This document shows, in pieces, positions 6,702-34,348 of a DNA stretch of 64,000 nucleotides (the stretch's first letter is position 1; each line of letters opens with the position of its first letter). The stretch spans positions 310,001-374,000 of the forward strand of contig JACAER010000006.1 in the NCBI GenBank assembly GCA_013388745.1, in the 5' to 3' direction. The notes below the pieces were generated by a model that was given only the letters and a program-made list of their open reading frames with translations, was not told where the DNA came from and did not search any database. The DNA is from Chloroflexota bacterium. Lineage in GTDB: Bacteria > Chloroflexota > Anaerolineae > Aggregatilineales > Phototrophicaceae. The position numbers were made by a program, and so were the translations under genes.

Positions 6702-7442
6702 CTAATCAACAAAGCGATACTTCACCAGCGCCCACAGCGCTTTGGGCGCGTCATGCCATTTGATCTTTTTGCCCTCGTTCCATTCGCGCCCGTTGTACGA
6801 AATCGGCACTTCGTAAATGCGAATGCCCTGTTTCAGCACTTTGGCCGTGAACTCTGGCTCAAATTCGAAGCCGCGCGCCCGCAACATCATATCTTTCACC
6901 ACCTCTGAACGAAACACCTTGTAGCAGGTTTCCATATCGCTCAGAATGGCGTTATATAGAATATTGGTCGAAAGCGTCAGAATTTTGTTGGCCACCATGT
7001 TCCAGAAGTTCATCGCCTTGCGCGGCCCCCCCAAAAAGCGCGACCCATAGACCACCTTTGCAATGCCTTCTTCCAGCGGCTTGAGCAAAATCGGATAATC
7101 GCGCGGGTCATATTCCAGATCGGCGTCCTGAATCAAAAAAATCTGACTCTTGCCCGCCTTGAAACCTGTGCGCAGCGCCGCCCCCTTGCCCTGGTTGCGC
7201 TCATGATAAATGATGCGCACCTGGCTGCTGCCCTCAGCTTCGATGCTCGCCAGCACGTCCCGCGTGCCGTCCGTAGAACCATCGTCTACGACGATGATCT
7301 CGTTGGCCAGCCCAACCGATTGTACGCGGTGGAGTACCTGGGCAATGGTGTGGACTTCGTTGTAACAGGGGATGACCACCGTGAGCGTCAGTTTTTGGCT
7401 GGCGGCCTCATAGGGCGCAGCCGATGCTTGCATCTGCGGCAT
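6702..7442 (-). CDS. Family 2 glycosyltransferase, dolichyl-phosphate-mannose-synthase type
   Basis: A 246-residue soluble GT-A enzyme without the C-terminal membrane helices seen in some relatives. Motifs in order: VVIPCYNE near residue 23, IIVVDDGSTDGT near 50, NQGKGAALRTGF near 85, the DxD metal and sugar-nucleotide site in QDADLEYD near 103, and VYGSRFLGG. The family transfers a hexose from a nucleotide sugar to polyprenyl phosphate at the inner membrane face. It sits between a methyltransferase gene (upstream) and the GT-C-like gene (downstream), all on the minus strand. A TATAAT lies at 7479-7474. Confidence 0.88.
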   Translation of the reverse strand: MPQMQASAAPYEAASQKLTLTVVIPCYNEVHTIAQVLHRVQSVGLANEIIVVDDGSTDGTRDVLASIEAEGSSQVRIIYHERNQGKGAALRTGFKAGKSQIFLIQDADLEYDPRDYPILLKPLEEGIAKVVYGSRFLGGPRKAMNFWNMVANKILTLSTNILYNAILSDMETCYKVFRSEVVKDMMLRARGFEFEPEFTAKVLKQGIRIYEVPISYNGREWNEGKKIKWHDAPKALWALVKYRFVD

Positions 7443-7473
7443 AATAACCTCGTGTTGATAAAAATTACGCGCG

Positions 7474-7479
7474 ATTATA
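7474..7479 (-). promoter_or_regulatory. -10 box (TATAAT) upstream of the GT2 gene
   Basis: A perfect TATAAT on the minus strand 31 bases before the start codon at 7442 and inside the 56-base gap after the methyltransferase gene. The -35 region (TAGATT at 16 bases) is weak. Confidence 0.35.
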
Positions 7480-7498
7480 GCATAGGGGAACAGTGAAT

Positions 7499-8083
7499 CT
7501 AGCGCGGTTTTTGCGCCACGAGCTGCGAGGTCTTGCCCATTTCATCCTGATACAGAATATCCCAACCGTCGAAATACAGGGCCAGTTCCCCAATTTCCAG
7601 CAAAAACGCCGGGTTAAAGCCCGGCACCTGCTGTAAATAATGCCTGTTGAAGCTCTGGTAGATCACGCGCCCGCCAGGACATACGCTGGCCGCCAGCGGC
7701 TTGAACAGGTCGCGCCGCAAGTAGCGGAACACGCACACCAGGGAATATTTCCCGCGTTCCAGCTCCACCGTATCCAGATCCACTTGCAGCAAATTGACGT
7801 TGCGCAGTTGGCGTTTTTCCATCTCTTTGCGCGCCCGCAGCAGCGCCACACGGCTGATGTCCATCAGATCGACAATATACCCCTGCTGCGCCAGCCATAG
7901 ACCATTCTGCCCTACCCCGCACGCCACATCCAGCGCCCGCACTTCTGCCCTCGGCTCCGGGTGCAGTGCCAGCGGCAGCGTGTACTCAAACAGCAGCGGG
8001 TCAGCCGCCGGATAGCGCCCATTGCTGTTCTGATAGATAGTATCCCAGCGCACACGATCTGCGGCCGACACGCTTTTCCCCAT
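7499..8083 (-). CDS. SAM-dependent methyltransferase, class I (TehB-like)
   Basis: A 194-residue protein with the Rossmann-fold methyltransferase signature: motif I LDVACGVGQNGLWLA near residue 48, an acidic residue ending strand two (VDLMDIS), and motif II/III around LLQVDLDTVEL and GGRVIYQSFN. Length and layout fit the small TehB/UbiE-like methyltransferases. The acceptor is unknown. It precedes the GT2 gene on the same strand, so a role in modifying a sugar or lipid is possible but only suggested by position. Confidence 0.8.
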   Translation of the reverse strand: MGKSVSAADRVRWDTIYQNSNGRYPAADPLLFEYTLPLALHPEPRAEVRALDVACGVGQNGLWLAQQGYIVDLMDISRVALLRARKEMEKRQLRNVNLLQVDLDTVELERGKYSLVCVFRYLRRDLFKPLAASVCPGGRVIYQSFNRHYLQQVPGFNPAFLLEIGELALYFDGWDILYQDEMGKTSQLVAQKPR

Positions 8084-8105
8084 AACTCACCACAAGTCTA
8101 CGTTC

Positions 8106-8111
8106 ATTATA
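8106..8111 (-). promoter_or_regulatory. -10 box (TATAAT) upstream of the methyltransferase gene
   Basis: A perfect TATAAT on the minus strand (in the context GCTATAAT) 22 bases before the start codon at 8083. No clear -35 box. Confidence 0.35.
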
Positions 8112-8182
8112 GCGCGAATCGCCTCTCCTGCTGGTGGGTTACTTTTGGCCTATTGGCCTATTTGCGGCCGTCCGCCGCGCCT

Positions 8183-9514
8183 TCAGCGGCTCGCCGCGCT
8201 GGCCTGCTGCTGCGCCGACCACGCCGGGGCGTTCGCCGGAAGCTCGCGTTCCAGCTTCCACAGATATTTGTGATATTCGACCTCAATGGTGTGCCGCGCC
8301 GCCTTGATGAACTGCTTGTTGATGCTCGCGACATCTTCCTGAATGCGCTGACGCATATCTGCCGGCGGCTGATAGTTGCCGACAATATAATTCGCCGCCA
8401 GCTTGCACTGCGCGTCGGCCAGCGGCCAGATGCATCCCAACGGCTGCACCAGCCCGATAAAAAACAGGCTGGCGTAATCCGGGTGGAACATACGCAGATA
8501 CAGCGGTACATCGCCTTCGGAATAATCGATAAAAGTCTGGTCGAAGAACGGGAAAGTGATGATAAAGCCTGTGCAGGCGATAATCGTATCGTATGCTTCG
8601 GCCTTGCCGTCCACAAAATGCACTGTCTTGCCCTCAAAGCGCGCAATGTCGCGGCGCGGATGAATCTTGCCGTGCCGGATGAAATACAGCAGTTCGGAAT
8701 TCATCGTCAGATGCGCACCCAAAATGCTGTGTTTGGGGCGTTCCAGCCCATAGCTGGCATAATCGCCCACGTTGAGCCACAGCGCCAGTTGCAGCAGCCG
8801 CAGCCGCAGCCAGTCCGGTAAACCTACGATGCGCGAATTCAGCACATCCGCCGGCTCGCCCATCGTAAATTTAGGCACAATATAGTAGCCTCGGCGCATA
8901 CTGATCCCCGTAAACGCCGATACGCGGCTGGTTTCCACCGCCACATCGCACGCCGAATTGCCGCCCCCGATCACCAGCACGCGCTGATCCCGGAACGGCG
9001 CAGCCGTCTTAAAATCGTGTGAATGCAAAAACTGTCCGCTGAACTGTCCGGGATATTCGGGATACCGCGGATTCCAGTGATGGCCGTTGCACACCAGCAG
9101 ATAATCAAACTGCTCGACGCTGCCATCGGCCAGCGTAATTTTCCATGTCTCGTCGGCCTGCCGGGCGGCGTGTTTCACTTCGGTGTTAAAGCGGATATAC
9201 GGCAGAATCCCGAAGTGTTCGGCATACCCCTGAAAATACGCCAAAAGCTGTTGATGCGAGGGGTAGTCAGGATACTCGGCCGGCATCGGATAATCGGCAT
9301 ACTGCGACAGTCGCTTGGAACTGATAATATGCGTGGTTTCAAATACGCTCGAATGGCTCAGACGCGGCGAGTACACCCAGTTGCCGCCGATCTGATCGTT
9401 CTTTTCATAAACGACGACCTTGCGCAGCCCGACTTGCAGCAGATTTTTCGCAGCGGTGATGCCCGATGGCCCCGCCCCGATCACACACACACGCGCCTCT
9501 TTATTGCGAATCAC
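8183..9514 (-). CDS. Flavin-containing monooxygenase (FMO family)
   Basis: A 443-residue two-dinucleotide-binding flavoprotein. The FAD site is GAGPSG at residues 13-18 with EKNDQIGGNW further on; the FMO-type motif FSGQFLHSHDF lies near 170; the NADPH site IGGGNSACD lies near 197; and a conserved ACTGF is near 315. Members oxygenate soft nucleophiles (N or S) using NADPH and O2, which implies an aerobic or microaerophilic host. The 3' end lies 100 bases from the methyltransferase gene; upstream, 75 bases away, ends the FHA-TIR gene on the same strand. Substrate unknown. Confidence 0.88.
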   Translation of the reverse strand: MIRNKEARVCVIGAGPSGITAAKNLLQVGLRKVVVYEKNDQIGGNWVYSPRLSHSSVFETTHIISSKRLSQYADYPMPAEYPDYPSHQQLLAYFQGYAEHFGILPYIRFNTEVKHAARQADETWKITLADGSVEQFDYLLVCNGHHWNPRYPEYPGQFSGQFLHSHDFKTAAPFRDQRVLVIGGGNSACDVAVETSRVSAFTGISMRRGYYIVPKFTMGEPADVLNSRIVGLPDWLRLRLLQLALWLNVGDYASYGLERPKHSILGAHLTMNSELLYFIRHGKIHPRRDIARFEGKTVHFVDGKAEAYDTIIACTGFIITFPFFDQTFIDYSEGDVPLYLRMFHPDYASLFFIGLVQPLGCIWPLADAQCKLAANYIVGNYQPPADMRQRIQEDVASINKQFIKAARHTIEVEYHKYLWKLERELPANAPAWSAQQQASAASR

Positions 9515-19890: not shown

Positions 19891-19919
19891 AGTATAGCTA
19901 ATCCTGCCACCAGACTCAA
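19891..19919 (-). promoter_or_regulatory. Probable dnaA promoter
   Basis: On the minus strand, -35 TTGAGT (19919-19914), a 17-base spacer and -10 TATACT (19896-19891). The leader to the ATG at 19707 would be about 175 bases. Confidence 0.55.
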
Positions 19920-19951
19920 CTAAAACACCCCGCAAACAATAAATTTTAAGG

Positions 19952-19974
19952 TTGGGATAAGTTCTACACAGTTG
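19952..19974 (+). repeat. 23-bp origin repeat, copy 1
   Basis: TTGGGATA, two variable bases, then TTCTACAC, A, G, T, TG. It matches copy 2 at 19 of 23 positions. Confidence 0.7.
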
Positions 19975-20037
19975 CTTAAAGGTAATAACATTTTAAAGCC
20001 CAAAAAAGCGCGCGAGTCACAGCGCAATTATAAGGAA

Positions 20038-20068
20038 TTTGGGTTAATTTAACCCACATTAACCCAAA
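20038..20068. repeat. Nested inverted repeat in the candidate origin
   Basis: TTTGGGTTAAT (20038-20048) is the exact reverse complement of ATTAACCCAAA (20058-20068). Between them TTAACCCA (20049-20056) also pairs with TGGGTTAA (20040-20047), giving two overlapping palindromes that share one arm. Confidence 0.7.
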
Positions 20069-20135
20069 AATATCCCAAAAATGCCCTAACATGCAGACTT
20101 AAGACCCATCCATAAAAACGTCAACTTTTTTAACA

Positions 20136-20158
20136 TTGGGATATTTTCTACACCGCTG
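20136..20158 (+). repeat. 23-bp origin repeat, copy 2
   Basis: TTGGGATA, TT, TTCTACAC, C, G, C, TG. Direct repeat of 19952-19974 at a distance of 184 bases. Confidence 0.7.
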
Positions 20159-20296
20159 GCCTTTTGCGCTTTGCCCATTTGGGATACTCTCATTTTTCAA
20201 GTATTGCAACTTCTCTCTTATTAATCCCCCAAAGCGATTGCTAAAATCAGGACGAATATCACTATTATTTAACGTATTTCATGTGACCTTAGCAAA

Positions 20297-20380: not shown

Positions 20381-20734
20381 ATGTCTGAATTCTACGAAGA
20401 AGCGACTTCCTTCAGCTCTGACTCAACCGTTACGTCGCCCCCTCGGGGCGAGGATGGGACAAAGCCCGAAGTCATCAAAGTCTCCGCCCATTCGCGTTCG
20501 ACTGCTGTCGCTGGGGCCATCGCCGGCGTCATTCGCGAACATCATTATGCCGAAGTACAAGCGATCGGCGCTGGCGCCGTCAATCAGGCGGTCAAAGCGC
20601 TTGCCATCGCCCGTGGCTATCTCAGTCGTGATGAGATAGACATCGTTTTTGTCCCGTACTTTACCGAGGTGGATATCGATGGCCAGGAGCGGACAGCCGT
20701 TCGTTTCTCGGTCGAGCCTCGTCCACAAGGGTAA
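20381..20734 (+). CDS. Stage V sporulation protein S family protein (SpoVS)
   Basis: 117 residues. After a variable N-terminus of about 30 residues comes the full SpoVS domain: VIKVSAHSRSTAVAGAIAGVI, AEVQAIGAGAVNQAVKALAIARGYL and ERTAVRFSVEPR. The fold is Alba-like and suggests nucleic-acid binding. SpoVS is needed for normal sporulation and division timing in Bacillus but is widespread in non-sporulating phyla, including Chloroflexota, Deinococcus and Thermus, where its role is unclear. No other sporulation gene is present. It is the first gene on the right side of the candidate origin; GGTGGA precedes the ATG. Confidence 0.9.
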   Translation: MSEFYEEATSFSSDSTVTSPPRGEDGTKPEVIKVSAHSRSTAVAGAIAGVIREHHYAEVQAIGAGAVNQAVKALAIARGYLSRDEIDIVFVPYFTEVDIDGQERTAVRFSVEPRPQG

Positions 20735-27889: not shown

Positions 27890-28735
27890 ATGCCAAACAC
27901 GATTGCACTTCTGACCGATTTTGGCACGCGAGACATTTACGTCGGCGCGATGAAAGGCGTTATCCAGCGCACCGCGCCGCAAACGACCGTGATCGACATC
28001 AGCCACCATATTGAGGCGCAAAATGTGCGTCAGGCGGCCTTCGCCCTCCTGAATGCCTATCGTTATTTTGTCGAGGGCACCGTGTTTCTCATCGTTGTCG
28101 ATCCCGGCGTGGGCAGCACGCGCAAGCCGATTGCTGTGCAGGCCGGCGCCTATATCTTCGTCGCGCCCGATAACGGCGTGCTGTCGTATGCGCTGGCCGA
28201 TCTTCCAGAAATGCGCGCCTACGAACTGACCAACCCCAGCTTGTGGCTGCCCGAAACCAGCGCCACCTTTCACGGACGCGATGTTTTCGCGCCGGTGGCC
28301 GCCTACTTGTCGGCGGGCATGGCGTTGGAAAACGTCGGTGACGCGCTGGAAAGCATCTTTACACTCCCGCCCCCGCAGCTCAGCGTCAGCGGCAAACGTG
28401 TACGCGGCGAAATCATGCATATTGACCGTTTCGGCAACATTATCAGCAGCATCGGCCAACTGCGCTGGCTTGCCCCAGATAAACTCACGCTCGACCCGCG
28501 CTTTGGCGATTCGCGCGTTCCCGTGCCTGTGCGCGCAACTGAAGCCCGCATCAAAATCGACACCACCGAAATCGAAGGCCTCAGCCGTGCCTACGCCGAT
28601 GCCCCGCGCGGCACACTGCTGGCACTGGCGGGCAGCAACGGCTATCTGGAAATCGCCGTCAATCAAGGCAATGCGGCAGCGACCTTAGATGTCGTTGTCG
28701 GCGATCATATCGACTTTACAGTAGGTGGCGCGTAA
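27890..28735 (+). CDS. SAM hydrolase (SAM hydroxide adenosyltransferase, DUF62)
   Basis: 281 residues of the chlorinase/fluorinase superfamily: IALLTDFGTRDIYVGAMKG at the start, VIDISHHIEAQNVRQAAF, VFLIVVDPGVGSTR, VAPDNGVLSYAL, and IMHIDRFGNIISSI. Housekeeping members cleave SAM to adenosine and methionine with water; there is no halogenation cluster here. ATG 27890 is chosen because AAGGAAA ends 9 bases upstream; the in-frame GTG at 27881 abuts that site. The next gene, murA, starts directly at the stop. Confidence 0.88.
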   Translation: MPNTIALLTDFGTRDIYVGAMKGVIQRTAPQTTVIDISHHIEAQNVRQAAFALLNAYRYFVEGTVFLIVVDPGVGSTRKPIAVQAGAYIFVAPDNGVLSYALADLPEMRAYELTNPSLWLPETSATFHGRDVFAPVAAYLSAGMALENVGDALESIFTLPPPQLSVSGKRVRGEIMHIDRFGNIISSIGQLRWLAPDKLTLDPRFGDSRVPVPVRATEARIKIDTTEIEGLSRAYADAPRGTLLALAGSNGYLEIAVNQGNAAATLDVVVGDHIDFTVGGA

Positions 28736-30076
28736 ATGCAGCAGTTTGTTATTCACGGCGGGCAGGCCCTTAACGGCGAAATGATCCCCAGCGGCAACAA
28801 AAACGCCGCGCTCAAAATGTTAGCCGCCTGCTTGCTCACCGATGAAGCGGTAATCCTGCGCAATGTCCCGGATATCGGCGATGTGCGTGTGATTATCAAG
28901 ATCATGCAGGGGCTTGGCGCGCAGGTCAACTGGCTGGACGAACGCACGGTGCGTGTCCATGCCCACAACATAACGACGACCACGGTCGATCCCCTGCTGG
29001 CGCAAAAAATTCGCGCCAGCATCGTGCTGGCCGGGCCGATGCTGGGGCGCTGTGGGCGCTTGATTCTGCCCGCGCCGGGCGGCGATACAATCGTCCAGCG
29101 CCGGCTCGATACACACGTTATCGCTCTCAAAAAGCTCGGCGCAGAGATCGCATTTCGCGATGGCGTTTTTGATATGCGCGCCGAAAAGTTGATCGGCACG
29201 GATATTCTGCTCGACGAAGCCAGCGTGACCGCCACCGAAAACGCGCTGATGGCGGCGGTGCTGGCGCGCGGCACGACGGTGATTCGCAACGCTGCCAGCG
29301 AGCCGCATGTGCAAGACCTGTGCCATATGCTCAATCAGCTTGGCGCGCAGATCGACGGCATCGGTTCGAATCGCCTGCTGATTCAAGGGGTAGAACGTTT
29401 GCACGGCGGTGAGGCGCGTGTCGGCGCGGATTATATCGAAGTCGGCAGTTTTATCGGCGCGGCGGCCATCACCAACGGCACGCTGCGCATCAAAGACGCC
29501 GATCCGCAGCATCTGGACATGATCGCGCTGGTCTTCGCCAGGTTGGGCGTGACCTGGCAAACCGAAGGGCAGGACATCATCGTCCCTGCCGGCCAGGATT
29601 TGACAGTCGCGCCGGATCTCGGCAACCGCATTCCGGTGGTGCGCGCGCAGCCCTGGCCGGCGTTTCCTTCGGACTTGATGAGCATCGCCATTGTTGTCGC
29701 TACCCAGAGCGCCGGCGCGCTGCTTTTCCACGAGTGGATGTACGAAAGCCGCTTCTTTTTTACCGATAAACTGGCATTGATGGGCGCGCGCATTACGCTG
29801 TGTGACCCGCATCGCATCCTCGTGCAGGGGCCAACACGCCTGGTCGCCGTGCCCAACATCAGCAGCCCGGACATCCGCGCGGGTATGGCGCTGCTGCTGG
29901 CGGCGCTGGCCGCCAAGGGCGAAACACGCATTTCCAATATCCAACAGATTGATCGCGGTTACGAACGGGTAGACGCCAAACTCGCGGCGCTCGGCGCGCA
30001 TATCGAGCGCATCGAGGACAAAAGCGGCGCCTCTCTGACCGAAACGCAGGAAACTCGGTTTTTCGGCAACGCCTGA
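28736..30076 (+). CDS. murA: UDP-N-acetylglucosamine 1-carboxyvinyltransferase with Asp in place of catalytic Cys
   Basis: A 446-residue EPT/RTPC-fold enzyme that transfers enolpyruvate from PEP to UDP-GlcNAc, the first committed step of peptidoglycan synthesis. K22 N23 (SGNKNAAL) are present. The active-site loop reads PAPGGDTIVQRRLDTH, so the Cys115 of E. coli is Asp117 here. Cys-to-Asp variants stay active and resist fosfomycin, as in Mycobacterium and Chlamydia. Further family motifs are TATENALMAA-like (TATENALMAAVLARG) and the C-terminal RGYERVDAKLAALGA. Its ATG abuts the SAM hydrolase stop. Confidence 0.9.
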   Translation: MQQFVIHGGQALNGEMIPSGNKNAALKMLAACLLTDEAVILRNVPDIGDVRVIIKIMQGLGAQVNWLDERTVRVHAHNITTTTVDPLLAQKIRASIVLAGPMLGRCGRLILPAPGGDTIVQRRLDTHVIALKKLGAEIAFRDGVFDMRAEKLIGTDILLDEASVTATENALMAAVLARGTTVIRNAASEPHVQDLCHMLNQLGAQIDGIGSNRLLIQGVERLHGGEARVGADYIEVGSFIGAAAITNGTLRIKDADPQHLDMIALVFARLGVTWQTEGQDIIVPAGQDLTVAPDLGNRIPVVRAQPWPAFPSDLMSIAIVVATQSAGALLFHEWMYESRFFFTDKLALMGARITLCDPHRILVQGPTRLVAVPNISSPDIRAGMALLLAALAAKGETRISNIQQIDRGYERVDAKLAALGAHIERIEDKSGASLTETQETRFFGNA

Positions 30077-30086
30077 GCGCATTTTT

Positions 30087-30641
30087 ATGCCCCAATTGGC
30101 GCGCCTCTCCAAATTCCTGGCGCTGCTGCTGCGCCACAAAGCCGCAGATTTTGGGCTGGCGCTGGATGAAAACGGCTTTGCTGACGTGACTCTGGTCTGG
30201 CAGCAAATCGAAAAACGCTATCGTGGGCAGTTCAGCTACGAGGATTTGCTGCGCGTGGTCGCGGGCGACGAAAGCGGCAAAAAACGCTACGAAATCGTCG
30301 ATAGCCGTATCCGCGCCCTCTTCGGGCACAGCAGCGGTGTTACACCAGTCCGTTACCCGCCTGTCGCGCCGCCAGAAATACTGTATCATGGCACAACACA
30401 AGCAGCATTGAACATCATTCGCCAGCAGGGACTTAAGGCGCAGCGCCGCCAGTATGTGCATTTCGCCACCAGCGTTGAACGCGCGCAAATTGTCGCCGCG
30501 CGCCACCGTGACGCCATCGTTGTTTTGCGCATTCGCGCTTTAGAAGCGCAGCAGGCGGGCATCGTCTTTTTCCACCCGGAAAGCGAACATTATCTGGCGC
30601 GCAGCCTACCGCCGCAGTTCATCGATTTCCCCGCCGTCTGA
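30087..30641 (+). CDS. kptA: RNA 2'-phosphotransferase (Tpt1/KptA)
   Basis: 184 residues. KptA removes an internal 2'-phosphate from RNA and passes it to NAD+, giving ADP-ribose 1'',2''-cyclic phosphate. Family motifs are LSKFLALLLRHKA with ALDENGFADV at the N-terminus, RYEIVDSRIRALFGHS, then LYHGTTQAALNIIRQQGLK and the His of YVHFATS in the ADP-ribosyl-transferase-like half. In bacteria, which lack the eukaryotic tRNA splicing path, its natural substrate is unsettled. It lies 10 bases after murA, and its last 23 bases overlap the convergent glycosyltransferase gene. Confidence 0.9.
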   Translation: MPQLARLSKFLALLLRHKAADFGLALDENGFADVTLVWQQIEKRYRGQFSYEDLLRVVAGDESGKKRYEIVDSRIRALFGHSSGVTPVRYPPVAPPEILYHGTTQAALNIIRQQGLKAQRRQYVHFATSVERAQIVAARHRDAIVVLRIRALEAQQAGIVFFHPESEHYLARSLPPQFIDFPAV

Positions 30642-31818
30642 CACGGCGGCGAAACAAACGCTTGCGCGGCGGATTTTGCACCAGGGGGCGCTGTGCATAG
30701 TCCCAGATTTCGCCTGCGATGTCCCATACGGCCTCCGGGCGTGCCAGATGCCGCGCGCGTTCCGCCAGGCGCTGCAATTCGCCGGGGCCTTTCGCCAGCC
30801 ACGAAGAAACGGCTTCGGCCACCTGTTCGGGCGTCGGCGCGAAAACGCCCGCGTCGTTATCGGTGACGTAAGTGACGTTGCCTTCTTCCTGTCCCGGAAT
30901 CGCGTCGCTGATTATCAGCGGCAGACCGGCGATACAGGCCTCGCTGATTGTCGCCGGGCCGGCTTTCGTCACCAGCACGTCGGCGGCAGCCATTAAGCGC
31001 GGCATATTCGTGACAAATGGATAGGCAATTACAGGCGTATTCCAGGCAGTGGTATCCAGTTTTTCTTTCAGCGCTTTGTTGCGTCCGGCCACCACGATCA
31101 ATTGACACTGCGCCGTGCGCGCATTGATGGCCTGCACTGTCTGATAGACCGGCCCCATGCCATCGCCGCCGTAGACCATCAGCACCGCAGGTCTATCGAT
31201 GGCCCAGCCCAATTCTTTACGCGCAGAAGCTTTGTCGGTCAGCGCTTCGGCAAAATGAGGATGCACGGGCAGCCCTGTAACACGCATCTGTTCCGCGCGC
31301 ATCCCGTTTTGCAGTCCGGCATCGAAGGCCGGCTGTGTCGGCACGAGGCAGCGGTCTACGCGCGCATCCCACCACGCCACATGGCCGGATACCAGATCGG
31401 TGACGACTGTCATGAAGGCCGGCCTCTGCTCCAATTTATACAGCATATCCAGCATGGGACGATTGACGAGCGGATGCACCGAGACAATCAGATCGGCGGG
31501 ATGCTCGCGCAGCAGCCGCTTAAAGCCGCGTTCAATGCCCAGCGCGAAATACACGCCGCGCGTCAGGGCGCGCGCGCGCCCGCCTTTGTTCGACATCTTA
31601 AAGATTAGCGCATACGAACGTTTGCTGTTGTTCACCAGCCAGGGATAGATTTCGGGAAATTTGTTGATCGGGTAGGGCGAATAATGCCGGAAGACATCGA
31701 CAATATCGACGAATACCTGTTCTCTGCCGTACAGTCGATAGAGGGCTTCCTCAATGGCTTCGGCGGCGGCGCGATGCCCCCCCCCGGTATCTGACATCAA
31801 AATCAGTATGCGTTTCAT
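30619..31818 (-). CDS. Glycolipid glycosyltransferase, MGDG-synthase/UgtP type (GT28)
   Basis: 399 residues. The N-terminal MGDG-synthase domain starts ILILMSDTGGGHRAAAEAIEEAL and has FKMSNKGG, VSVHPLVNRPML and FMTVVTDLVSGHVAWW; the C-terminal GT-B domain has VMVYGGDGMGPV, GRNKALKEKL, ADVLVTKAGPATISEA and a GQEEGN loop for the nucleotide sugar. The family adds galactose or glucose to diacylglycerol at the cytoplasmic membrane face, making membrane glycolipids. Single minus-strand gene; the 3' end overlaps kptA. Confidence 0.9.
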   Translation of the reverse strand: MKRILILMSDTGGGHRAAAEAIEEALYRLYGREQVFVDIVDVFRHYSPYPINKFPEIYPWLVNNSKRSYALIFKMSNKGGRARALTRGVYFALGIERGFKRLLREHPADLIVSVHPLVNRPMLDMLYKLEQRPAFMTVVTDLVSGHVAWWDARVDRCLVPTQPAFDAGLQNGMRAEQMRVTGLPVHPHFAEALTDKASARKELGWAIDRPAVLMVYGGDGMGPVYQTVQAINARTAQCQLIVVAGRNKALKEKLDTTAWNTPVIAYPFVTNMPRLMAAADVLVTKAGPATISEACIAGLPLIISDAIPGQEEGNVTYVTDNDAGVFAPTPEQVAEAVSSWLAKGPGELQRLAERARHLARPEAVWDIAGEIWDYAQRPLVQNPPRKRLFRRRVRRRGNR

Positions 31819-31918
31819 GCAAAATCCTTAGCAACCTGCGCCGCGCTCAGCTTGTTCACCCTTAATAACACCAAGCGCGCCAAAATGAGGTGAAGTTGCC
31901 TTATACTACCACGCGATA

Positions 31919-31927
31919 TGTTATACT
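31919..31927 (+). promoter_or_regulatory. Extended -10 promoter (TGTTATACT)
   Basis: TGT followed by TATACT at 31922-31927, 35 bases before the TTG start of the M50 protease gene. Confidence 0.45.
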
Positions 31928-31961
31928 GAACACGTCACCAACTAGACCTGAGGAGCAGGCG

Positions 31962-32627
31962 TTGCTTACCCAGTTATTGACCGGCAGACTCTCGATTGAA
32001 TACTTTATCTCGTTCATTATCGCCCTGACTCTGGCGATGACCATCCACGAATTTGCCCACAATTATATCGGCTACCGCATGGGCGATCCCAACCCGCAGC
32101 GCACGGGACGTTTGACGCTCAACCCGCTGGTGCATATCTACTGGCCGGGCTGGCTGATGTTCATTATTCTGGGCTTCGGTATTCTGGGCTTCGCGCCGAT
32201 TGACTGGCGGCGGATGCCGATCGAAAATCGGCGCTGGCGCTGGCTGGCTGCGGTGGCTGCCGGCCCGCTTTCGAACCTGCTGCTGGCGCTCATTATCGCG
32301 CTCATTCTGCGCATCATTGGTGTAGGAAATCTGGTTGAAATCTCGCGGTTCGTCGTTACCTTGTTGATTGTCATTGTCAGCGTAAATGTGCTGCTGTTTG
32401 TCTTTAATCTGCTGCCGCTGTTCCCTATCGACGGCTGGCAGATCGTCTGGACGCTGCTGCCGCCCGACCTGGCCTATACGTGGGATCGTTACAAGGAATA
32501 TACGCAGTACGCCTTTTTCGGGCTGCTGCTGCTCAGCTTTTTGCCCGGCGGCGTGATTCCCAACGTGTTCGGTTTGCTGATCGGCCAACCGGTCGATTTT
32601 CTGACAAACCTGCTGCTCGGCTTTTAA
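31962..32627 (+). CDS. Site-2-type membrane metalloprotease (M50 family)
   Basis: About 221 residues with six hydrophobic segments. The zinc site is HEFAHN (HExxH) in the second helix and the third ligand lies in NLLPLFPIDGWQ (the NPDG-like motif, here IDG). This resembles the small SREBP/S2P group without PDZ domain. The start is taken as TTG 31962, because GAGGAG lies about 7 bases upstream; an in-frame upstream ATG at 31890 lies before the predicted promoter. Substrate unknown; relatives cleave anti-sigma factors or signal peptides. An HD-hydrolase gene follows after 18 bases. Confidence 0.87.
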   Translation: MLTQLLTGRLSIEYFISFIIALTLAMTIHEFAHNYIGYRMGDPNPQRTGRLTLNPLVHIYWPGWLMFIILGFGILGFAPIDWRRMPIENRRWRWLAAVAAGPLSNLLLALIIALILRIIGVGNLVEISRFVVTLLIVIVSVNVLLFVFNLLPLFPIDGWQIVWTLLPPDLAYTWDRYKEYTQYAFFGLLLLSFLPGGVIPNVFGLLIGQPVDFLTNLLLGF

Positions 32628-32645
32628 GTCGCCCACTCAACGGCT

Positions 32646-33173
32646 ATGTTCAACGCCGCAGTGTATCGTTTCCGGCAGGGTATTCTCTCGCTTTTTGCGC
32701 CGCTACGCCCGCTCGATCTCAGCCTGGCCGCGCGCTATCTGAACTCTGAGCAGATGGCATTATTCGAGCGTTTTCGGCGCGGGGAACAGTTGCACAGCCT
32801 GAATGTGCTGCGCAGCGTGCTGGCACAAGGCGAGACGCCGCCTGAGCTGGCTGTTGCGGCGCTGCTGCACGACATCGGCAAAGTGCGCTTTCCGCTGCGC
32901 ACGTGGCAGAAGACGCTGGCGGTGCTGGTGCGGGCGTTTGCGCCGCCGCTGTTCCAGCGTTGGAGCGCGGGGGAATATACCGATTTGTGGCGGCGGCCTT
33001 TCGTCGTGCGCGTGTATCATCCGATTTGGGGGGCGGAACTAGCGGCGAAGACGGGCGCAGCGCCCACGACGCTGTGGCTGATCGCGCATCATCAGGATAA
33101 AGCGGTAGACTGGGCGCGGCATCCTGCGGTGGAGCTGCTGCGGCGCTTGCAGGCGGCGGATAATCGCAATTAG
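32646..33173 (+). CDS. HD-domain phosphohydrolase
   Basis: 175 residues. The HD motif is in VAALLHDIGKV near residue 78, with an upstream His in LHSLNVL near 50 and further metal-ligand candidates in YHPIWGAEL and LIAHHQDK. A hydrophobic region (TLAVLVRAFAPPLFQRW) sits in the middle. The HD superfamily hydrolyses phosphate esters, including nucleotides and ppGpp-like or cyclic compounds; the specific substrate is not evident. Likely cotranscribed with the M50 protease. Confidence 0.82.
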   Translation: MFNAAVYRFRQGILSLFAPLRPLDLSLAARYLNSEQMALFERFRRGEQLHSLNVLRSVLAQGETPPELAVAALLHDIGKVRFPLRTWQKTLAVLVRAFAPPLFQRWSAGEYTDLWRRPFVVRVYHPIWGAELAAKTGAAPTTLWLIAHHQDKAVDWARHPAVELLRRLQAADNRN

Positions 33174-33319
33174 CGGCGGGTTGACCTATGCTGATTGTGC
33201 CCTATTCGAGCCAGTCATATTTCGCGCAAGAAGCCGGCTTTCGTTAGAATGGTTTTAAGGAAGTGCAAAAAGTGTTATTCCTTTTCTTTTGGAACATGAT
33301 GAGTTGAAAGCAAAACACG

Positions 33320-34348
33320 ATGGCAACGATTACAGTGGGCATTCTGGGATTGGGGCGCATGGGCGCGTCGCTGGGGCTGGCGCTGCGGCGCTACAATGCC
33401 AGCAAAGGCGCGCAGCACCAGTTCAAAATCACGGCTTACGAGCGGCGCGGCGCTGTCCAGCAGGAAGCGCGCAAGTTTAACCCGGCAGATGAATATATCA
33501 ACAGTCCGTTTAACGCCGTGCGCGAAAAAGATATCGTGGTGCTGGCGCTGCCATACAGCGATGTGCAATCGATGTACGAAGTGTTAGGACGCGAACTGCG
33601 TCCCGGCGGCGTGGTTTTTGATACCTCGTCAATCAAAAGCCCGTCGCTGGGCTGGGCGCAAAAATATCTGCCGTCTGAAGTCTACATGGTGGGCATCACG
33701 CCAGTGCTGAACCCGCGCCTGCTCTACACGAGCGTAGACGAAACCGCCGCCGCGCGCGAAGACCTGTTCGATAACGGGTTGATGCTGCTGATGCCCGGCA
33801 TTGGCTGCGCGAAAGAAGCGGTGGAATTGGCGACGGATTTCGGCCAATTGTTGGGCGCCAAATCGCACTTTATCGATCCGGCGGAGCACGATGGGCTGAT
33901 GGCGGCCACCGATGGCCTGCCTGCGCTGCTGGGCGTGTTGTTCTACCATATGCTGCGCAGCAGTCCCGGATGGAACGATGGGCAGCGGCTCACGAACCCG
34001 GCGTTCGCCTATCTCACACATCATCTCTACGACACGCATCCCGACGATCTGCGCGACGTGTTCATGCACAACCGCGACAATATGCTGCGCTATCTCGATG
34101 CGATGCTGAGCACGCTGCGCAATTTCCGGCAGGCGCTGGCGCAAAATGACCGGAACGCGGTCGAAGCGGCAGTGGTAGACAGCGCGCTGGATTATGAAAA
34201 GTGGCTGAACCGCCGCACAAAAAATGAGTGGGACGAAAAAGATGCTCTGGGCAAAGCCGCGTCAGCCGCCGGTGATATTGTCACCGGCTTGTTCGGCACG
34301 TATTTGGGCAACCGGCTGCGCGGCAAAAAAGACGACGAGAAAAAATGA
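33320..34348 (+). CDS. Prephenate dehydrogenase-like NAD(P)-binding protein
   Basis: 342 residues. The N-terminal Rossmann domain begins VGILGLGRMGASLGLAL, with VVLALPYSDVQSMYEVL and GGVVFDTSSIKSP; the C-terminal helical dimerisation domain contains HDGLMAATDGLPALLGVLF, where prephenate dehydrogenases carry a conserved His-containing helix. Such enzymes convert prephenate to 4-hydroxyphenylpyruvate for tyrosine, but length and loops leave room for a related dehydrogenase, and no aro genes are nearby. The ATG has only a weak ribosome site. A hairpin at 34353-34371 follows. Confidence 0.75.
   Translation: MATITVGILGLGRMGASLGLALRRYNASKGAQHQFKITAYERRGAVQQEARKFNPADEYINSPFNAVREKDIVVLALPYSDVQSMYEVLGRELRPGGVVFDTSSIKSPSLGWAQKYLPSEVYMVGITPVLNPRLLYTSVDETAAAREDLFDNGLMLLMPGIGCAKEAVELATDFGQLLGAKSHFIDPAEHDGLMAATDGLPALLGVLFYHMLRSSPGWNDGQRLTNPAFAYLTHHLYDTHPDDLRDVFMHNRDNMLRYLDAMLSTLRNFRQALAQNDRNAVEAAVVDSALDYEKWLNRRTKNEWDEKDALGKAASAAGDIVTGLFGTYLGNRLRGKKDDEKK

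Follow-up and report, generated by a model that had tools for sequence, protein, structure and literature searches.

A repeat array beside dnaA in the Phototrophicaceae: probable dnaA regulatory region, with the predicted chromosomal origin at another locus

Repeats that lie next to dnaA are easily taken for a replication origin. This question was raised by a 64,000-nucleotide stretch (the window) of contig C67 in a draft genome of a Chloroflexota bacterium from the family Phototrophicaceae, in which the gap between dnaA and spoVS had been proposed, in a sequence-only reading, to be an oriC at 19921-20280 with non-canonical repeats instead of standard DnaA boxes. Here, the gap was compared with the rest of its own genome and with a sample of 61 Phototrophicaceae genomes (family f1) spanning 24 genera; these include draft genomes and the single 5,631,885-bp contig of Phototrophicus methaneseepsis ZRK33 (CP051151; PMC8941918). 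The repeats proved to be correctly observed and for the most part wrongly interpreted: the sequence comparisons as a whole are best explained, with high confidence, by a gap that serves as a dnaA regulatory region and not as the chromosomal origin.

The repeat array between dnaA and spoVS

A motif search of the window recovered six exact copies of TTGGGWTA and one near copy at 19952-20186, in both orientations (Table 1), in agreement with the seven copies or near-copies read previously; the remainder of the 64-kb window holds four exact copies only. The motif is concentrated in the gap, with 6 copies in 236 bp (Poisson P = 3.6e-16) versus 155 in the 4.57-Mb genome, where the reversed control occurs 121 times, and the 9-mer TTATCCCAA, the reverse of TTGGGWTA, is found 31 versus 7 times. 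Two 23-bp direct repeats starting at 19952 and 20136 are identical at 19 of 23 positions and form a composite, TTGGGATA-N2-TTCTACAC, that was found again upstream of dnaA in other genera; a nested palindrome, TTGGGTTAA...TTAACCCAA, with the inner part GGGTTAA-T-TTAACCC, occupies 20039-20067. Both structures can be read in the sequence as they had been described. The canonical E. coli box TTATCCACA is likewise absent from the whole window, leaving no match to the R-type DnaA box TTWTNCACA, and the two comparisons that had given repeats 7 of 9 positions in common with the E. coli box were accurate. An Rfam search gave no matches, and the genes at other TTGGGWTA pairs (a Ser/Thr kinase with a PP2C phosphatase, a lipoprotein, and a small winged-helix-like protein) form no clear regulon.

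Table 1. Positions of features in the gap beside dnaA (contig C67, numbered within the window) and at the predicted oriC (contig C29)
Contig	Feature	Position	Strand	Remarks
C67	dnaA	18301-19707	-	468 aa; Pfam Bac_DnaA 1.4e-65, Bac_DnaA_C 1.2e-25; divergent from spoVS
C67	Predicted dnaA promoter, TTGAGT-N17-TATACT	19891-19919	-	Consensus scan; conserved in family
C67	TTGGGWTA box	19952-19959	+	Promoter-nearest copy; 32 bp from -35, conserved helical register
C67	Composite repeat, copy 1	19952-19974	+	Read from sequence
C67	TTGGGWTA box (TTGGGTTA)	20039-20046	+	Left arm of nested palindrome
C67	Near copy, GTGGGTTA	20050-20057	-	Motif search
C67	TTGGGWTA box (TTGGGTTA)	20060-20067	-	Right arm of nested palindrome
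C67	TTGGGWTA box (TTGGGATA)	20071-20078	-	11 bp from neighbouring box
C67	TTGGGWTA box (TTGGGATA)	20136-20143	+	Motif search
C67	Composite repeat, copy 2	20136-20158	+	Read from sequence
C67	TTGGGWTA box (TTGGGATA)	20179-20186	+	Motif search
C67	spoVS	20381-20734	+	Divergent from dnaA
C29	GAF-histidine-kinase gene	7407-8663		Beside predicted oriC
C29	Predicted oriC	8799-9101		Four DnaA-trios, GC spacer, ten TTWTGAACAG boxes

Phasing of the boxes to the predicted dnaA promoter

Relatives carry the motif upstream of dnaA too: at about 50 loci, TTGGGWTA was observed 146 times versus 2.9 expected, with boxes in about 45 of 50 genomes, and TTWTNNACAG, the motif of the origins described below, was observed 3 times versus 2.9 expected. 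A predicted promoter matching the consensus, TTGAGN-N17-TATACT, is conserved in the family approximately 200 bp before dnaA, and nearly all family members scanned have a match to TTGNNN-N16-18-TATA[CG]T upstream of the gene. In all 30 genomes (16 of 16 genera) in which the nearest box, in the TATCCCAA orientation, lies within 60 bp of this promoter, the gap between box and -35 element measures 23, 32-34, or 43-44 bp (32 bp in the window, 19920-19951); the phasing resultant is 0.94, versus a maximum of 0.57 among 10,000 random draws. The promoter-proximal box thus has a constant orientation and stays on the same helical face relative to the -35 element, a phased upstream position as at class-I-type activator sites and the behaviour expected of an activator. 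Spacing between boxes also tends to multiples of ~10.5 bp. Three genomes of one genus (g19) are without boxes and have a -35 element nearer to consensus (TTGACC), which fits the loss of an activator. A factor binding TTGGGWTA would thus activate or modulate dnaA transcription from class-I-like positions.

That the boxes serve spoVS instead is extremely improbable: most relatives do have the gene divergent from dnaA, but the boxes take their phasing from the dnaA promoter, they stay before dnaA in several genomes whose upstream sequence exceeds 1 kb and in which spoVS is not adjacent, and they are gone from g19, where spoVS is adjacent. As a separate observation, a TTGGGWTA cluster is shared by two genera within a syntenic stretch that carries gyrA and guaB-like genes (L157/L158: G041 C8, G028 4195 kb).

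A predicted oriC at another locus

In the basal unwinding system (BUS) of the B. subtilis oriC, tandem DnaA boxes are followed by a GC-rich spacer and DnaA-trios (PMC8287927). A strict DnaA-trio/box pattern matches exactly once per genome in 26 of 57 family genomes, as it does in one genome of family f8, and has no matches in the reversed control. The loci were also traced by following a histidine kinase into other genomes, that of the window included. Their shared architecture comprises TAG repeats (DnaA-trios, 3'-GAT-5'), a GGG/CCC spacer, two tandem TGTNNAAA boxes, and then 4-12 copies of TTWTNNACAG. The tandem boxes, spacer, and trios stand in the same order as in the BUS; the differences are that the Phototrophicaceae boxes are TTWTNNACAG with genome-particular positions 5-6 (GA, GC, CT, CG, AG, or CA) rather than TTATCCACA, and that this oriC is not beside dnaA. 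Both motifs are enriched at these loci, TTWTNNACAG with 200 copies versus 1.9 expected and TTGGGWTA with 103 versus 1.5.

Skew supports the assignment sharply in two relatives. In P. methaneseepsis, the GC-skew changes sign near 0.84 Mb and at ~3.5-3.8 Mb, half a genome apart, and a distance of 1.2 kb separates the element (844,499) from the GC-skew minimum (843,285), with the TA-skew minimum at 842,950. The element is located in a gap that precedes a GAF-HisKA-HATPase histidine kinase gene, 0.84 Mb from dnaA; at dnaA itself (0 Mb), there is no change of sign, both sides being negative. In G008, the GC minimum (675,682) and the element (675,136) are ~0.5 kb apart. The minimum at the element is sharp in G028 and G008 and broad or ~20 kb away in G022 and G041.

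In the genome of the window, the pattern matches once, at C29:8799-8823, and 10 of the 31 genomic copies of TTWTGAACAG fall within the 288 bp of C29:8814-9101 (P ~2e-34), with none on contig C67. The locus C29:8799-9101 therefore has the DnaA boxes, GC spacer, and DnaA-trios of an oriC, in single copy. TTGGGWTA is nearly absent from it, two TTGCGATA variants only being present. C29 and C67 are not joined in the draft assembly; the predicted oriC and dnaA are at least ~72 kb apart. The contig ends 8.8 kb from the predicted oriC and local skew there is noisy, as is that of the window contig. DnaA would start replication at a locus of this type via its TTWTNNACAG boxes.

These results leave the gap beside dnaA as a very improbable origin, whether the only one or a second, despite being AT-rich, adjoining dnaA, carrying dense repeats, and being conserved in relatives. 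The own-genome scan placed no DnaA-trio/box match at 19921-20280 and the sequence before dnaA has no TTWTNNACAG; the skew minimum of the complete relative falls at the other locus, and the boxes of the gap are phased to a promoter. Within the window, no GC-skew inflection was detected at dnaA. Separately, within 28000-34000 a strong negative skew ends at a local GC-skew minimum at 32746, ~12.5 kb from dnaA and free of TTGGGWTA, which is probably a local compositional change.

A GAF-histidine kinase marks oriC in several Phototrophicaceae genomes. In G096 (family f8, L258), oriC lies directly downstream of dnaA, and a GAF-histidine-kinase-like gene begins after it. This arrangement suggests an ancestral order dnaA-oriC-kinase, from which dnaA was later separated in the Phototrophicaceae. 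In G041, the neighbours of the P. methaneseepsis element flank a gap directly beside dnaN. As an origin marker, dnaN was rejected: it adjoins oriC in some genomes only, the distance in P. methaneseepsis being ~1 Mb, and the assembly that contains the window lacks it. For this family, which has a cultured member in P. methaneseepsis, the analysis thus offers a concrete predicted oriC.

Loss of Asp433 and the probable shifted DnaA box

High conservation across bacteria has been described for Asp433 of DnaA (E. coli numbering; PMC8235120). Alignment of domain IV places Thr at this position in the DnaA of the window (GGRTHTTVLHG), with Arg399 retained. Asp433 is absent from 50 of 50 family DnaAs, which carry S, T, K, R, A, Q, or N instead and keep Arg399, His434, and Ser/Thr435. 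It is also replaced in families f2, f3, and f8 and kept in f4, f5, f6, and f7. In the oriC boxes, positions 7-9 (ACA) are constant and positions 5-6 are GA, GC, CG, CT, CA, or AG, usually of one or two kinds per genome; C occupies position 6 in 15% only, and the canonical TTATCCACA is absent from the 26 family oriCs. The boxes on the dnaA side include TTATCCACA in f6, where Asp433 is kept, and are a mixture of TTATCGACA, TTATCAACA, and TTATCCACA in f3, which has mostly Asn433.

The association between loss of Asp433 and a changed box is clear; a causal tie to residue 433 would account for it, and relaxed positions 5-6 of TTWTNNACAG would go with the loss. The earlier proposal of a shifted DnaA box in this lineage therefore survives in substance, but TTWTNNACAG, at the other locus, is most likely to be that box, together with loss of the near-universal Asp433. 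As a candidate for a box shifted through the Asp433 change, TTGGGWTA was weakened by its absence before dnaA in f2 and f3, which are also without Asp433, and by the separate box array beside the DnaA-trios at oriC loci. A tree-based comparison of residue 433 with TTGGGWTA offered too few independent pairs.

Divergent DnaA boxes are known in Thermotoga (PMC10316083) and the Epsilonproteobacteria (PMC5043019), where, as here, the box has changed across a whole lineage; in the Phototrophicaceae, unlike in those groups, the change accompanies replacement of Asp433. With this residue replaced in four families (f1, f2, f3, and f8) and kept in four others, and with box positions 5-6 varying, the group constitutes a natural experiment on DnaA specificity.

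Which factor reads TTGGGWTA

Since the same TTGGGWTA boxes occur at origins and before dnaA, one factor probably serves both. It would thereby also bind oriC, coupling initiator supply to the state of the origin. The regulators CtrA, MtrA, and IciA/ArgP bind a dnaA promoter as well as oriC. The Phototrophicaceae resemble these systems in having one motif common to oriC and the dnaA promoter and in their helically phased arrays; the difference is that TTGGGWTA is another motif, to be read by a putative protein. We lean slightly towards a regulator other than DnaA. In the form tentatively favoured, though short of probable, an undescribed counterpart of CtrA or MtrA would read TTGGGWTA at oriC and the dnaA promoter, while DnaA lacking Asp433 would read a box whose middle drifts from genus to genus.

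It is also possible, if doubtful, that two classes of DnaA box exist: TTWTNNACAG as the strong class, and TTGGGWTA (in reverse, TTATCCCAA) as a second one of the ATP-DnaA type, in which position 7 is C. ATP-DnaA would then regulate its own promoter and help at oriC, which agrees equally with a gap that is the dnaA promoter. Boxes of this type are found in E. coli, Caulobacter, and H. pylori, where C7 marks them and Asp433 reads position 7 (PMC8235120). TTATCCCAA, a DnaA-box-like 9-mer, does have C7 and is found in dnaA promoters and origins, both typical DnaA targets; the 7-of-9 match to the E. coli box, the spacing near multiples of ~10.5 bp, and the loss of Asp433 in every family member read also point this way, as does the presence of the motif in part of f8 (G096, with Thr433, has two copies before dnaA and two in the oriC between dnaA and the kinase). 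Against it, f2 and f3 lost Asp433 yet gained no motif before dnaA, and g19 has Ser433 and no motif there, with genome-wide counts of 6 versus 5 in its member G035. Unlike a typical ATP-DnaA box, TTGGGWTA, a putative DnaA target, is constant over ~20 genera while residue 433 varies, and its phasing to the promoter resembles that of an activator site. The conserved His434 and Ser/Thr435 fit retention of ACA, as in TTWTNNACA, better. Whether a separate regulator, as slightly favoured, or DnaA itself, the factor common to oriC and the dnaA promoter could be fished out with the known DNA sequence.

DnaA gene content in relatives

Loss of dnaA in G045 was considered and judged an assembly gap, because the oriC of this genome keeps ten TTTTGAACAG boxes. 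In genus g17, a PF08299 search found DnaA in G039 and G055 and none in the other seven of nine genomes (G017, G033, G043, G046, G049, G052, and G058), which are 93-96% complete, some in ~20 contigs; this reflects either true loss or a systematic assembly gap. In G028 (C1), frames at 4861299-4861529 and 1215645-1215956, outside dnaA, match the DnaA N-terminal domain only (43-52% identity), and G090 and G095 have two DnaA-like genes each.
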